In this document: piece by piece, positions 10,497-37,975 of the stretch
Layout of the letters: every line of letters begins with the position of its first letter
Numbering within the stretch: the first letter of the stretch is position 1
DNA from: Halorientalis sp. IM1011
GTDB taxonomy: Archaea > Halobacteriota > Halobacteria > Halobacteriales > Haloarculaceae
Assembly (NCBI RefSeq): GCF_001989615.1
Contig: NZ_CP019067.1
Span: 1,674,001-1,738,000, forward strand
Reading direction: 5' to 3'
Length of the DNA stretch: 64,000 nt
Program-made: the position numbers and the translations under genes
Notes under the pieces: model-generated
Seen by the model: only the letters and a program-made list of their open reading frames with translations
Databases searched by the model: none
Told to the model about the DNA's origin: nothing

Positions 10497-10646
10497 ATGC
10501 ACGATCTCGGAGGCTTCCAGCGGGACGATCCCGTGGCCAGCGGCGGCCGCGACGGCCCGGAGGGGCTGGGAGTCGAACGCGACGGCGACGAGGGGGAGGC
10601 CAAGGGCGGGGACGAGTGGGCACGTGAACGTATCTGGAGCAACTAG
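10497..10646 (+). CDS. small acidic protein, unknown function
   Basis: A 49-residue protein starting MHDLGGFQRDDPV and ending WARERIWSN. It has no known domain. A TATA-like TCTAATTATG at 10464-10473 lies about 28 bases before the ATG, so the gene is probably real and leaderless. Its 3' half lies in the first unit of the 127-bp tandem duplication. The next small gene starts one base after its stop. Confidence 0.6.
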   Translation: MHDLGGFQRDDPVASGGRDGPEGLGVERDGDEGEAKGGDEWARERIWSN

Positions 10647-10846
10647 CATGGAATACGTCCAGTCATCGAGCGGGAAGTGGCACAAGACGGACTGTCAGTA
10701 CTCGCCGGACGACGACGAGGGGGAGGCCAAGGGCGGGGACGAGTGGGCACGTGAACGTATCTGGAGCAACTAGCATGGAATACGTCCAGTCATCGAGCGG
10801 GAAGTGGCACAAGACGGACTGTCAGTACTCGCCGGACGACGACGAG
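10587..10846. repeat. 127-bp perfect tandem duplication (2 copies plus 6 bases)
   Basis: Unit 1 is 10587-10713 and unit 2 is 10714-10840, identical base for base, followed by a 6-base partial third copy (GACGAG). The unit spans the junction of two small genes. Its duplication creates a chimeric reading frame between the intact genes. The 6-base GACGAG at both ends suggests slippage or unequal recombination at short homology. Confidence 0.95.
10648..10773 (+). CDS. chimeric small reading frame made by the tandem duplication
   Basis: A 41-residue frame. Its first part (MEYVQSSSGKWHKTDCQYSP) is identical to the start of the gene at 10775. Its end (EGEAKGGDEWARERIWSN) is identical to the end of the gene at 10497. 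It keeps the start context of the downstream gene but loses that gene's second cysteine pair. It is either a non-functional by-product or a newly made fusion; nothing here shows it is expressed as a working protein. Confidence 0.5.
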   Translation: MEYVQSSSGKWHKTDCQYSPDDDEGEAKGGDEWARERIWSN

Positions 10847-10924
10847 CGGGAGGGCGAGACGGATCACCTCCCGATCGACGCCGACCGGTGTCAGCACTGC
10901 ATCGACTCCTTCGAGTTCGCCTAG
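10775..10924 (+). CDS. small cysteine/histidine protein, probably zinc-binding
   Basis: A 49-residue protein with WHKTDC near residue 12 and CQHC near residue 39, a plausible single zinc site. In the ancestral arrangement it followed the 10497 gene with a one-base gap; the duplication now separates them by 127 bases more. Its stop overlaps by two bases the stop of the converging membrane-protein gene (10921). Function unknown. Confidence 0.6.
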   Translation: MEYVQSSSGKWHKTDCQYSPDDDEREGETDHLPIDADRCQHCIDSFEFA

Positions 10925-33254: not shown

Positions 33255-34901
33255 TCAGTTGTCGAACCGCGCCTGCACGAACGGCTGGACGTCCTCGATG
33301 TCGCCCAGCCGGGAGTCCGACAGGAGAACTGCCTCGGTCTCGTCGATTGGCACCGAGAGGCTGATCTCCTTGGTGCGCCCGTACCGACCTTTCGAGACGA
33401 CGACGGCGTTGACGATGCCCAGCATGTCCAGTTCGGAGATCAGATCCGTCACGCGCCGCTGGGTGAGCGTGTCCGCGTCGATCTCCTCGCAGAGGCGCTT
33501 GTAGATGTTGTACACCTCGCCGGTGTTGATGTTGTGGACGCCGTTTTTCTCCAGCAGGATGATCGCGAACAGGACCAGCTTCGACTGCGTGGGGAGGGTC
33601 CGGACCACTTCGACCACGCGGTCGAGTTCGATCTTCTCCTGGGCGCGCCGGACGTGATCCTCCTCGACGCGTTCGGTCTGACCGCGCTCGGCGAGTTCCC
33701 CTGCGGTCCGCAACAGGTCGAGCGCCCGACGAGCGTCCCCGTGTTCCTGTGCGGCGAAGGCCGCACACAGCGGGATCACGTCGTCGGAGAGGGCCCCCTC
33801 CTCGAAGGCGTCGTTCGCGCGGTGCTGGAGGATGTCCCGGAGCTGGTTGGCGTCGTAGGGCGGGAAGACGATCTCCTCCTCGCCGAGGCTGGACTTGACC
33901 CGCGGGTCGAGGAAGTCGGTGAACTTCAGGTCGTTGGAGATGCCCATGATCGACACCCGTGAGTTGTCGAGTTCGGAGTTCATCCGCGAGAGGTTATAGA
34001 GGGTGTCGTCGCCGGATTTCTCGACGAGCTTGTCGATTTCGTCGAGCATGATGACGACCACGCGCTCGTGGTAGTCGACGGCCTCGAAGAAGCTGTTGTA
34101 CACGCGGTCGGTCGGCCACCCGGTCATGGGGACCTCCTCGAACTCCTCGCGGTCGTCGTCCAGGTCCTCGATCCGGGCGTCCAGTTCGTCGACGGTCTCG
34201 ATCTCGTCGATCCCCGGCCCCGAGCCCACGGACACCCCCGTTTCGAGTGCACTCCCGTCTGCGGAAGCCAGGGCGGAGGGGTCGTCTTCTGCCCGTTCGC
34301 GGAGGTCTTCCAGTTCGGCGATACGGTCGTCGATCACCGACCGGTTCTGCTCGATGAACTTGTTGGCCAGTTGCGCGAGCACGCGGTACTGGGTGTCGGT
34401 GACCTCGCAGTTGATGTACTGGACCTCACAGGGGACCTCGTACTTCTGAGAGGTGGTCTCCAGTTCCTCGCTGACGAACTTCGCGCTCGCGGTCTTGCCC
34501 GTCCCGGTCTTGCCGTAGATGAGGATGTTCGACGGTGTGTCCCCGCGCAACGCCGAGACGAGGATCGTCGCCATGTTGTTGATCTGTTCCTGTCGGTGGG
34601 GAAGCTCCCGGGGCGTGTACGACGGGCGCAGTACCTCCTTGTTCTCGAAGATGGGCGCGCCGCTGAGCAGGTCGTCGAACAGTCCGCGCGACGCCTCGTC
34701 GAGGTCGCCGTCTTCCTCGACGTCGTCGAGTACCACGTCGTCCAGCGACGAGTCGGAGATCGACGTCTCTACGTCGACGCTGGATCGGCTCTCGTCGCCC
34801 GCCGCATCGTCGAGCGGTGACTGGCCGTCGGGCCCGCTCTGCCCGTCTCGCTTCCCCGCTCCCGTGTCCGGTCCGTCGGATTCGTTTCCGCTCCCTGTCA
34901 T
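33255..34901 (-). CDS. orc1: Orc1/Cdc6 replication initiator
   Basis: The protein binds ORB sites, melts the origin and helps load MCM. The 548-residue AAA+ protein has an acidic N-terminus, Walker A GKTGTGKT (130-137), a haloarchaeal insertion with an acidic helix (about 205-260), Walker B MLDEIDKL (from 285), sensor-1 MGISNDLKF, sensor-2 GDARRALDLLR and a C-terminal winged helix (VYNIYKRLCEEIDADTLTQR, RVTDLISELDMLGIV). ATG at 34901 is chosen. An in-frame GTG at 35021, 25 bases after a strong TATA box (AATATTTAATAGC, minus strand), would add 40 residues. The adjacent ORB-bearing region marks it as the origin-linked paralogue. Confidence 0.95.
   Translation of the reverse strand: MTGSGNESDGPDTGAGKRDGQSGPDGQSPLDDAAGDESRSSVDVETSISDSSLDDVVLDDVEEDGDLDEASRGLFDDLLSGAPIFENKEVLRPSYTPRELPHRQEQINNMATILVSALRGDTPSNILIYGKTGTGKTASAKFVSEELETTSQKYEVPCEVQYINCEVTDTQYRVLAQLANKFIEQNRSVIDDRIAELEDLRERAEDDPSALASADGSALETGVSVGSGPGIDEIETVDELDARIEDLDDDREEFEEVPMTGWPTDRVYNSFFEAVDYHERVVVIMLDEIDKLVEKSGDDTLYNLSRMNSELDNSRVSIMGISNDLKFTDFLDPRVKSSLGEEEIVFPPYDANQLRDILQHRANDAFEEGALSDDVIPLCAAFAAQEHGDARRALDLLRTAGELAERGQTERVEEDHVRRAQEKIELDRVVEVVRTLPTQSKLVLFAIILLEKNGVHNINTGEVYNIYKRLCEEIDADTLTQRRVTDLISELDMLGIVNAVVVSKGRYGRTKEISLSVPIDETEAVLLSDSRLGDIEDVQPFVQARFDN
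34233..34251. other. ORB-like sequence inside orc1
   Basis: CACCCCCGTTTCGAGTGCA resembles the origin ORBs (C-string, then GTTTCGAGTG). It is coding, in the insertion of Orc1. Confidence 0.4.
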
Positions 34902-34907
34902 AAACGT

Positions 34908-34934
34908 ACCCCTCTGTTTCGGGTGGAGAGGAAC
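34908..34934 (-). other. ORB element 1, next to orc1
   Basis: The minus strand has CTCCACCCGAAACAGAGGGG. It sits just upstream of the orc1 ATG, so Orc1 could repress its own gene by binding here. Confidence 0.65.
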
Positions 34935-35039
34935 ACCACGCGTCCCAGAAACGGCCCGTGAGTCGTCGAAGATCCGCTGTAGGTGGAAATCGGGCTTTCC
35001 GAGGACGTCCAGTTGAACCACAAGAACCCGTGGTTGACG

Positions 35040-35085
35040 AGCTATTAAATATTTCGATCGTTGAATGATCAATAGTCCACAGTAT
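35040..35085. promoter_or_regulatory. AT-rich block: orc1 promoter and possible unwinding element
   Basis: It contains GAGCTATTAAATATTTCG and GAATGATCAATAG. On the minus strand AATATTTAATAGC is a strong TATA box for orc1. The region could also melt easily. Confidence 0.5.
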
Positions 35086-35165
35086 GGAGCCGTTGCATCC
35101 GATATCAGACCGTAGAGTCGGCGTTCTCGGCGATCGACGAGAGTGGGAAGACTCCGCTGACACCG

Positions 35166-35193
35166 GGGAACACCCCCGTTTCAGGTGTAACGG
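35166..35193 (-). other. ORB element 2
   Basis: The minus strand has TTACACCTGAAACGGGGGTG. It is a variant core (ACACCTGAAAC) with the G-string. Confidence 0.6.
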
Positions 35194-35443
35194 AGAATAG
35201 ATCCGTCTCACCCGGGAAACGATGTGAACGTGACGTGCAATTCGAGCCAGAGAGGAGAGCAGTAGTTCCGGCCAATAGCGTCAACGGAATCGAGAGATCT
35301 AGTTGACGTTTTCGAGTGAGCGGATCGACGAGAGAGCAAAAGACGAGAGAGCAGAACCGGAACACCAGCTGGGATCGTCGTAGGTTGGAGAACGGTTCCG
35401 GTGGGGAGAGCGGTTCGACGGGAAAGGATGGGGTGGGGAGGGA

Positions 35444-35473
35444 CCCCCCCACCCCTTCGTTTCGGGTGGAACG
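35444..35473 (-). other. ORB element 3 (left arm of the core origin)
   Basis: The minus strand has GTTCCACCCGAAACGAAGGG followed by a long G-string (GTGGGGGGG). It mirrors the element at 35715-35742 across the AT-rich stretch. Confidence 0.8.
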
Positions 35474-35496
35474 GTGTGGAGGAGGGGTGGGGGGAC

Positions 35497-35514
35497 CCCC
35501 TCTCTAGAGAGGGG
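35497..35514. repeat. 18-bp perfect palindrome in the origin
   Basis: CCCCTCTCTAGAGAGGGG. It lies between the left core ORB and the AT-rich stretch. Confidence 0.85.
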
Positions 35515-35650
35515 AAGCATTAAGTAACCACTCTAACAATCAAACCCGTAGAACACCCAAACACCCTTTCTTCTAGTGGAGCTAGTATGTTGTGTGGCTA
35601 GAGTCAGCGAAATCAGCTAGACTAGTGGAAAGTATGCCTAGAGGCACGCT
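35515..35650. other. AT-rich stretch, likely duplex unwinding element
   Basis: A markedly AT-richer segment (for example AGCATTAAGTAACCACTCTA) between the two inverted core ORBs. It contains repeated short CTAG and CTAGTGGA words. Confidence 0.6.
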
Positions 35651-35714
35651 CCCGTGGAGTAACCTCCATATCCATCGACGACTCGCTGCTCACCCCCACC
35701 CCGGCATTCCTGCC

Positions 35715-35742
35715 GTTCCACTCGAAACAAGGGGGTGGGGGG
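35715..35742 (+). other. ORB element 4 (right arm of the core origin)
   Basis: GTTCCACTCGAAACAAGGGG followed by GTGGGGGG, the full ORB with G-string, in the opposite orientation to ORB element 3. Confidence 0.8.
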
Positions 35743-35822
35743 CTTCCATCCCGGTCAGTCCAGATCAGGTTTTCACCGCACTGTGGTAACTGGTACCGTG
35801 GCATTCCCATTCGTCATCTACA

Positions 35823-35843
35823 CCCTGCTCCGTTTCGGGTCCA
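35823..35843 (-). other. weak ORB-like element
   Basis: CCGTTTCGGGT with flanking CTGCT and CCAG. It has the core but no G-string. It lies 26 bases before the iteron array. Confidence 0.35.
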
Positions 35844-35868
35844 GCCCGATCATCCGCCAATACTTTCC

Positions 35869-35994
35869 CGTCGACCCTCCCCCGTCAACACTTTCCCGTC
35901 GACACTCTCCCGCCGACCCTCTCCTGTCGACACTCTCCCATCGACCCTCTCCTGTCGACACTCTCCCATCGACACCTTCCCGTCGACTACCTCT
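35869..35994. repeat. array of nine 14-bp iterons
   Basis: Nine consecutive units of consensus CGTCGACACTCTCC, each differing by 0-3 bases, with TGTCGACACTCTCC repeated exactly twice. The 14-base period is not a multiple of three and the reading frames across it have poor composition, so it is not coding. It lies on the oapA side of the origin. Confidence 0.9.
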
Positions 35995-36190
35995 GCCCGG
36001 CTCACGGGACCGTTTCTTCCGTTGGTTGCTTTCCGACACGTCCAGCGGACGTGCCATATCCTGCCCCGTCCATCGTTTCACCCCATCGTTTCCCCACGAA
36101 CCGGCCACTCTCCCACCGAATTAGTATCGGAGTATTTATGTATGTCTGACGTACACTTAAGTCGATTCGGTCGGGAAGTACCCGCAGAAG

Positions 36191-36214
36191 CTCTCTCACG
36201 GAGAGAGCGGGAGG
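36191..36214 (+). promoter_or_regulatory. 5'-UTR hairpin and ribosome binding site of oapA
   Basis: CTCTCTC-ACG-GAGAGAG (36191-36207) forms a perfect 7-bp stem. GGGAGG (36209-36214) is a Shine-Dalgarno sequence 6 bases before the ATG. A leader with SD is unusual here, where most genes are leaderless. The hairpin abuts the SD and could tune translation. Confidence 0.6.
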
Positions 36215-36220
36215 CCCAGG

Positions 36221-36850
36221 ATGGGACTGATCACGGACATCCGAGACAGTATTTCGTCGTTGTTCTCGGCGCAGGACCCGAAGCGAATCGGTATCTACGG
36301 TCCACCAAACGCCGGGAAGACGACGCTGGCGAACCGCATCGCTCGCGACTGGACAGGTGACGCTATCGGCCCGGAGAGTCACATTCCACACGAAACACGG
36401 CGCGCACGCAGAAAGGAGAATGTCGAGATCGAGCGCAACGGCAAGTCGGTCACCATCGACGTGGTCGACACGCCCGGTGTGACGACGAAAGTCGACTACA
36501 CCGAGTTCCTCGAACACGACATGGAGAAAGACGACGCCGTGCGCCGCTCACGCGAGGCTACCGAAGGCGTCGCCGAGGCCATGCACTGGCTGCGCGAGGA
36601 CGTCGACGGCGTCCTCTACGTGCTCGACTCCACCGAGGACCCGTTCACGCAGGTGAACACGATGCTCGTCGGCATCATCGAGAGTCAGGACCTGCCCGTC
36701 CTGATCCTCGCGAACAAGACCGACCTCGAGGACTCGAACATCCGCCGCATCGAGAACGCCTTCCCCCAGCACGAGACGCTGCCCCTGTCGGCGCTGGAAG
36801 GCGACAACATGGACGAGGTCTACGACAAGATCGCGGAGTATTTCGGGTGA
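36221..36850 (+). CDS. oapA: Era-like GTP-binding protein, origin-associated OapA
   Basis: A 209-residue GTPase. G1 is GPPNAGKTT (27-35), G3 is VVDTPGVTT, and G4 is LANKTDLED; G5-like LPLSALEG follows. In haloarchaea this gene (oapA) is linked to the orc1 origin together with oapB and oapC. Its function is not settled, possibly in linking replication to cell state. An SD sequence and a hairpin precede it. oapB starts 4 bases after its stop. Confidence 0.9.
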   Translation: MGLITDIRDSISSLFSAQDPKRIGIYGPPNAGKTTLANRIARDWTGDAIGPESHIPHETRRARRKENVEIERNGKSVTIDVVDTPGVTTKVDYTEFLEHDMEKDDAVRRSREATEGVAEAMHWLREDVDGVLYVLDSTEDPFTQVNTMLVGIIESQDLPVLILANKTDLEDSNIRRIENAFPQHETLPLSALEGDNMDEVYDKIAEYFG

Positions 36851-36854
36851 TCTC

Positions 36855-37247
36855 ATGCCGGAAGTGAAAAAAGCAGACGACGGCGACGACGGCGTGCAGA
36901 TCGACCTCATCAGCGGTGAGCGCATGGAGAACATGACCTCCATGGAGAAGATCCGGATGATACTCGACGGTGTCCACGAGGGGAACATCGTCATCCTCGA
37001 AGAGGGACTGTCACCGGACGAGGAGTCCCGGCTCATCGAGGTCACGATGACCGAGATCAGCCCCGACGAGTTCAACGGGATCGAGATCGAGACGTATCCC
37101 CAGTCCGGGAGCACGGACTCGGGACTGCTCAACCGGCTGATGGGCAACAACGAGACGAAGAAGCTGACGGTGATCGGGCCGGCGAACCAGATCGAGACGC
37201 TACACAAAGACGAGACGCTGATCAGCGCCCTGGTCTCACGGAAATAA
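36855..37247 (+). CDS. oapB: DUF2073-type origin-associated protein OapB
   Basis: A 130-residue acidic protein matching the archaeal DUF2073 family: ISGERMENMTSMEKIRMILD, VHEGNIVILEEGLSPDEESR and KKLTVIGPANQIETLHKDET. It sits between oapA (4-base gap) and oapC (TAATG overlap), the usual haloarchaeal order beside the origin. Its molecular role is unknown. Confidence 0.87.
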   Translation: MPEVKKADDGDDGVQIDLISGERMENMTSMEKIRMILDGVHEGNIVILEEGLSPDEESRLIEVTMTEISPDEFNGIEIETYPQSGSTDSGLLNRLMGNNETKKLTVIGPANQIETLHKDETLISALVSRK

Positions 37248-37975
37248 TGCCCCACCAGTGTACGAGCTGCGGCCAGGTGTTCGACGACGGCTCCAAGGAG
37301 ATGCTGTCGGGCTGTCCCGACTGCGGCGGGAACAAGTTCCAGTTTCACCCCTCCACCGAGGACGTCCCGGACGAACCGGAGCCGTCGGCCGAACCGCCGG
37401 ACCCGCCCGCGCCCGACAGCTCCGTGGCCCGTACCGTCGGGAGCGCGGCCGCAACCGTCCGCGACCTGGTCGGTGGCTCGGGCGGGTCGAAGTCCGCGGG
37501 CGCACCCGACGACGACGCGTCGTCCGCCGCCCCGGAACACACGCCGGCCGACTCGATTCCGTCTGAACCGGCCCCGGCCCCGGAACGCACCCCGGGCGAA
37601 AATCCTCCGTCACGTGAAGACGCCGCACAGGCCGACGCTCGCAGCGAAGTCGTCAGCCCGGACGAGATTCCCACGGATGCCGACGTGGACACCCGGGACG
37701 ACGCACACGCACAATCCGACGCGACCGGCGACGGACCCGTCCCCGATTCGGCGGGCGGTACCGGCGGCCGCGTCGCAAGCGAACCCAGCGAGGACCGCCC
37801 GGACCTGAGTGACCTCCGCGAGGAACTCAACGACCAGTTCGAGAGCATCAAGGTCCTGAGTCCGGGACAGTACGAACTCAACCTGATGGAGCTGTACGAC
37901 CGCGAGGAGTACATCATCGCCCTCCAGGAAGACGGTCGGTACACGATTCAGGTTCCCGAGAACTGGCACGATTGA
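37247..37975 (+). CDS. oapC: zinc-ribbon origin-associated protein OapC
   Basis: A 242-residue protein. The N-terminal zinc ribbon has CTSCG (5-8) and CPDCGG (23-26). A disordered Pro/Ala/Asp/Glu linker runs from about residue 37 to 180. A conserved C-terminal domain (FESIKVLSPGQYELNLMELY, then DREEYIIALQEDGRYTIQVP) ends the protein. The ATG overlaps the oapB stop by one base. It completes the oapABC operon. The middle is poorly conserved in such proteins, but the two ends match the family. Confidence 0.85.
   Translation: MPHQCTSCGQVFDDGSKEMLSGCPDCGGNKFQFHPSTEDVPDEPEPSAEPPDPPAPDSSVARTVGSAAATVRDLVGGSGGSKSAGAPDDDASSAAPEHTPADSIPSEPAPAPERTPGENPPSREDAAQADARSEVVSPDEIPTDADVDTRDDAHAQSDATGDGPVPDSAGGTGGRVASEPSEDRPDLSDLREELNDQFESIKVLSPGQYELNLMELYDREEYIIALQEDGRYTIQVPENWHD

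Follow-up and report, generated by a model that had tools for sequence, protein, structure and literature searches.

The oriC1 locus

The window, the whole stretch of 64 000 nucleotides analysed here, belongs to a Halorientalis chromosome and spans the orc1–oapA–oapB–oapC neighbourhood of oriC1; the OapA protein that it encodes is 100 % identical to OapA of H. pallida and H. persicus. The initiator gene orc1/cdc6 (33255–34901, minus strand) is of the oriC1 type (NCBIfam NF001625, 659 bits; Pfam Cdc6_C and Cdc6_lid). On the other side of the origin the gene for the origin-associated GTPase, oapA (36221–36850, plus strand; Pfam MMR_HSR1), is followed by oapB (36855–37247; Pfam OapB) and oapC (37247–37975; Pfam OapC), and relatives were found in every searched genome of at least 90 % completeness. 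Several more orc1/cdc6-like genes are carried on the genome's two smaller contigs (C2 and C3), which makes it probable that each of these replicons has its own Orc-type origin.

The oriC1 core is bounded by two inverted ORBs with G-strings, the left at 35446–35472 (minus strand, 26 of 27 consensus matches) and the right at 35715–35741 (plus strand, 23 of 27), both of which are conserved in congeners. The region between them (35473–35714, no strand assigned) has G-rich inverted repeats at its edges, next to the ORBs, and is AT-rich at about 35515–35640, as in the layout of the experimentally dissected oriC1m (PMC3936714). The minimal oriC1 of Haloarcula hispanica consists of nothing more than an AT-rich region flanked by two inverted ORBs, and a G-rich inverted repeat enhancer has been reported at oriC1 of most haloarchaea (PMC3936714). 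The core in the window has the canonical haloarchaeal layout and is otherwise complete and conserved.

Between the right ORB and oapA lies a spacer in which a 12 bp ORB-like core, CGTTTCGGGTCC (35831–35842, minus strand), faces the right ORB and adjoins the array described below. This is the 'weak ORB' that an earlier note on this DNA had placed on the oapA side; it is marginal as an ORB, and the exact 12-mer is found in three congeners (loci L009, L010 and L107), at a corresponding place within spacers that are otherwise unalignable; L011 has it there too, with a single mismatch. We regard it as a candidate auxiliary Orc1 site. Alignability to relatives resumes at 36120–36200 (plus strand), a conserved block proximal to oapA that contains the TATTTATG box and CTTAAGT and that would act as the oapA promoter.

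A tandem array of 14 bp units beside oriC1

The orc1–oapA intergenic region also contains, outside the conserved oriC1 core, nine head-to-tail copies of a 14 bp unit with the consensus ACTCTCCCGTCGAC (35862–35987, no strand assigned), delimited by Tandem Repeats Finder (TRF), repeat families and comparison of the units. With 77 % matches, no indels and a TRF score of 154, this is the top short-period array of the window (the runner-up with a period of up to 30 bp scores 96), and the same 14 bp spacing was recovered by a separate repeat-family search. Matches to the unit at three or fewer mismatches number 10 in the spacer of the window, against a mean of 0.72 and a maximum of 3 in shuffles. 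The earlier note had described nine 14 bp repeats at 35869–35994, next to the chromosomal Orc1 origin; the array is real and its location correct, the two intervals differing by a register offset of 7 bases. A distance of 121 bp separates its start from the right ORB, with the 12 bp ORB-like core in between, and about 130 bp lie between its end and the conserved oapA promoter block.

Several of the units are identical (unit 1 to unit 3, unit 5 to unit 7 and unit 6 to unit 8), and units 5–6 and 7–8 form an exact 28 bp duplication, 35918–35945 being repeated as 35946–35973, which together point to recent tandem duplication in 28 bp steps. Like the surrounding spacer, the array is C-rich. A GTCGAC palindrome is present in five units, and the plus strand of the array, as single-stranded DNA, folds more strongly than shuffles (z = −3.05), an excess that the repeated palindromes alone could explain. 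The unit length corresponds to 1.33 helical turns, which places adjacent units on different faces of the helix. Neither the unit in arrays elsewhere in the genome nor an array of this kind near the other orc1-like genes was found.

As the earlier note had held, the array is not recognizably coding: the 14 bp period crosses all reading frames, and the two ORFs that run across it (35735–36124, plus strand; 35818–36108, minus strand) match no Pfam family and sit in unalignable spacer. A structured RNA was likewise rejected, as no Rfam family reached its gathering score and the weak matches fell mostly on the G-rich inverted repeat.

Other Halorientalis origins

The spacer was compared, with one genome per species, with eight other Halorientalis origins (L009, L010, L011 and L012, together with L106, L110, L112 and L107 from genomes G001, G002, G003 and G005, respectively); no paper on Halorientalis origins was found in the available literature. 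The earlier note had pointed to related genomes as the place to judge the array, and all eight proved to have no array or an unrelated one: the unit occurs 0–1 times at three or fewer mismatches, which is the level of shuffles. All eight congeners can be aligned with the window over the ORB core and the oapA promoter block, while the intervening spacer hardly aligns apart from the 12 bp ORB-like core. Degenerate iterons in the congeners were also considered and rejected, the 14-mer and its rotations not being enriched in the other Halorientalis spacers.

Since the nearest relatives, which are about 84–89 % identical across the flanking genes, lack the array, it would postdate those splits or, less simply, have been lost repeatedly. 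At 479 bp the spacer of the window is the longest of the nine (congeners, 306–426 bp), and without the 126 bp array it would measure 353 bp, as in the relatives; the array is therefore best read as added DNA. One congener (L112) carries an unrelated array of 3.6 copies of a 23 bp unit elsewhere in the same spacer.

Arrays and strand composition at haloarchaeal oriC1 loci

We surveyed 130 non-redundant haloarchaeal oriC1 loci for tandem arrays of at least 2.8 copies. Arrays were present in the right spacer, from ORB to oapA, of 24 of the 130 loci (0.57 per kb; TRF thresholds miss strongly decayed arrays), in the left flank of 20 (0.39 per kb, over 400 bp that may include the start of orc1) and in the ORB-to-ORB core of just 2 (0.055 per kb); no array appeared when the right spacers were shuffled. 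Other intergenic DNA of the same loci served as control and had 0.25 arrays per kb, a figure that includes some miscalled coding repeats, as the regions were delimited with a simple home-made gene caller. Against this control the right spacer shows a modest excess, being about 2.2 times denser in arrays (P=0.007), the left flank does not differ significantly (P=0.16) and the core is depleted (P=0.02).

The arrays of the right spacers have periods of 10–23 bp and unrelated unit sequences. No array had a close counterpart in the spacer of another species, there being only four weak cross-matches of 66–72 % identity, and within each of Halorussus, Halorarius and Haladaptatus the species differ in both unit and period. 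Among the 24 right-spacer arrays, none exceeds the nine copies of the array in the window. The left flank of locus L215 (genome G056), on the orc1 side of another haloarchaeal oriC1, carries a purine-rich array of 8.7 copies of a 15 bp unit, ACAGAGTAGAGACGA, which with a score of 262 is stronger than the array of the window. Helical phasing was entertained as an explanation, since the periods in the first 76 loci were often near 10.5 or 21 bp (10, 11, 20 and 22 bp), but the loci added later had mostly periods of 13–17 bp and no consistent phasing was found among the origin-flank arrays.

In the window (34900–36220) and across the 130 loci, pyrimidines predominate in the outward strand to the right and to the left of oriC1, with fractions of 0.56–0.57 on the right and 0.55 on the left compared with 0.51 in control upstream regions (P=2×10⁻⁹ and P=3×10⁻⁴, respectively). 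The right spacer has a pyrimidine fraction of 0.62–0.70 in every Halorientalis, the strongest group. The excess is mainly one of C over G. An inverted GC skew is known for haloarchaeal chromosomes (PMC2841640), and the pyrimidine-rich outward strand is probably this same skew in intergenic DNA; because it fits the known skew, a mutational explanation of the C excess is allowed.

Interpretation of the array

The analysis establishes that the array is present, that its relatives have no homologous array, that arrays of unrelated sequence recur at this position in other origins and that such arrays are nearly absent from the oriC1 core. We consider it very probable that the array is a lineage-specific minisatellite that arose by slippage or unequal recombination in unconstrained C-rich spacer; most likely, it is not a working part of the origin but an ordinary, fast-changing duplication array. 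Slippage had been one of the options listed in the earlier note, and it is the one that best fits the data. Imperfect head-to-tail copies with recent internal duplication are what is expected of a minisatellite, as is an occurrence that is sporadic and unrelated in sequence, the array being absent from the eight congeners and unrelated arrays lying in 23 other oriC1 spacers. What counts against this reading is the record copy number of nine and the folding of the plus strand, and the roughly 2.2-fold density of arrays could reflect something besides relaxed constraint.

Our working model is that head-to-tail duplication, partly as 28 bp dimers, acted on a small piece of the fast-evolving, C-rich spacer that separates the right flank of oriC1 from the oapA promoter, and that the copies then drifted. 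Either replication slippage or unequal recombination, which are indistinguishable here, would be the source, and the array would be neutral for origin use. Unique sequences that developed spontaneously make up about 40 % of archaeal satellites (PMC6749651). Like the spontaneous prokaryotic satellites and minisatellites described in that work, the array consists of short, imperfect, head-to-tail units of unique sequence, occurs sporadically in related species and bears signs of recent tandem duplication. Unlike the short-repeat satellites of Halobacteria, which mostly belong to genes (PMC6749651), it is noncoding and its unit length is not divisible by three; it also differs in lying in the flank of a replication origin.

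An alternative is that the array is one form of a selected feature that does not depend on sequence, the flanks of oriC1 needing pyrimidine-rich outward strands or a certain spacer length. Such needs may concern primer sites, the exclusion of chromatin proteins or the exit of the helicase, and tandem duplication may be one route to meeting them. The pyrimidine-rich outward strand on both sides of oriC1, and in the right spacer of every Halorientalis, would be expected under this explanation. However, the excess is mainly of C over G and fits the inverted GC skew (PMC2841640), spacer length ranges from about 140 to 800 bp and several arrays are not pyrimidine-rich (e.g. L013, L037 and L044), and we regard selection of this kind as improbable.

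The earlier note had raised the possibility of iterons that bind a second initiator. Under this reading each 14 bp unit would be the site of such an initiator, or of a regulator, and the bound protein would promote initiation at oriC1 or, through titration, hold it back. An iteron typically spans about two helical turns (roughly 18–22 bp), is conserved with its Rep protein and is essential. The array shares with the iterons of plasmid origins its direct, evenly spaced short repeats near a replication origin, and the GTCGAC palindrome in five units could be added in favour of a binding site; clustered initiator sites can, moreover, regulate a haloarchaeal origin, as at oriC2D of H. hispanica (PMC3936714). 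Yet the unit, its number and its position are conserved in none of the eight congeners, even though the ORB core and neighbouring genes are, and in other haloarchaea this spacer holds either an unrelated array or no array. In addition, the unit is shorter than a plasmid iteron, presents neighbouring copies on different sides of the helix, forms no other array in the genome and, among the species compared, is found in one only, outside an Orc1–ORB origin that is otherwise complete. The proposal of a second initiator is thus unsupported, and we consider iterons very unlikely.

Nor is the array a cluster of ORBs. Repeated elements beside an orc1/cdc6 origin are shared with ORB and mini-ORB elements and with the ORB-rich oriC2D of H. 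hispanica (PMC3936714), but the unit ACTCTCCCGTCGAC lacks both the ORB core (GAAAC) and the G-string, and the real ORBs of this origin lie elsewhere, intact. The G-rich inverted repeat enhancer of haloarchaeal oriC1 (PMC3936714) belongs to the same class of origin, and its counterpart here is found inside the ORBs; that element is inverted and within the core, whereas the array is direct, not conserved and outside it.

It is tempting to speculate that oriC1 flanks tolerate, or even make use of, short arrays whose units are quickly replaced, in a repeat zone outside the ORBs; the sequence would be free, and its repetitiveness or richness in C would influence unwinding, the exit of the helicase or initiation that depends on recombination. 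We give this idea very little credence. The position of the array, some 130 bp before the conserved promoter block at 36120–36200, would fit a regulatory element acting on oapA or on transcription that enters the origin, but such a role is extremely unlikely, as that block is conserved in congeners that have no array and the unit forms no array elsewhere in the genome.

The array indicates that even a conspicuous repeat next to an Orc1 origin of a chromosome is not necessarily part of that origin, and such arrays should not count as iterons in origin prediction. The comparison shows haloarchaeal oriC1 to be a well-conserved core between fast-changing spacers in which unrelated minisatellites appear and vanish. 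A longer tandem duplication is present in the window at 10581–10853, where a 127 bp unit is repeated in 2.1 nearly perfect copies (98 %); the unit contains a stop codon followed by ATG and may span the end of one gene and the start of the next.
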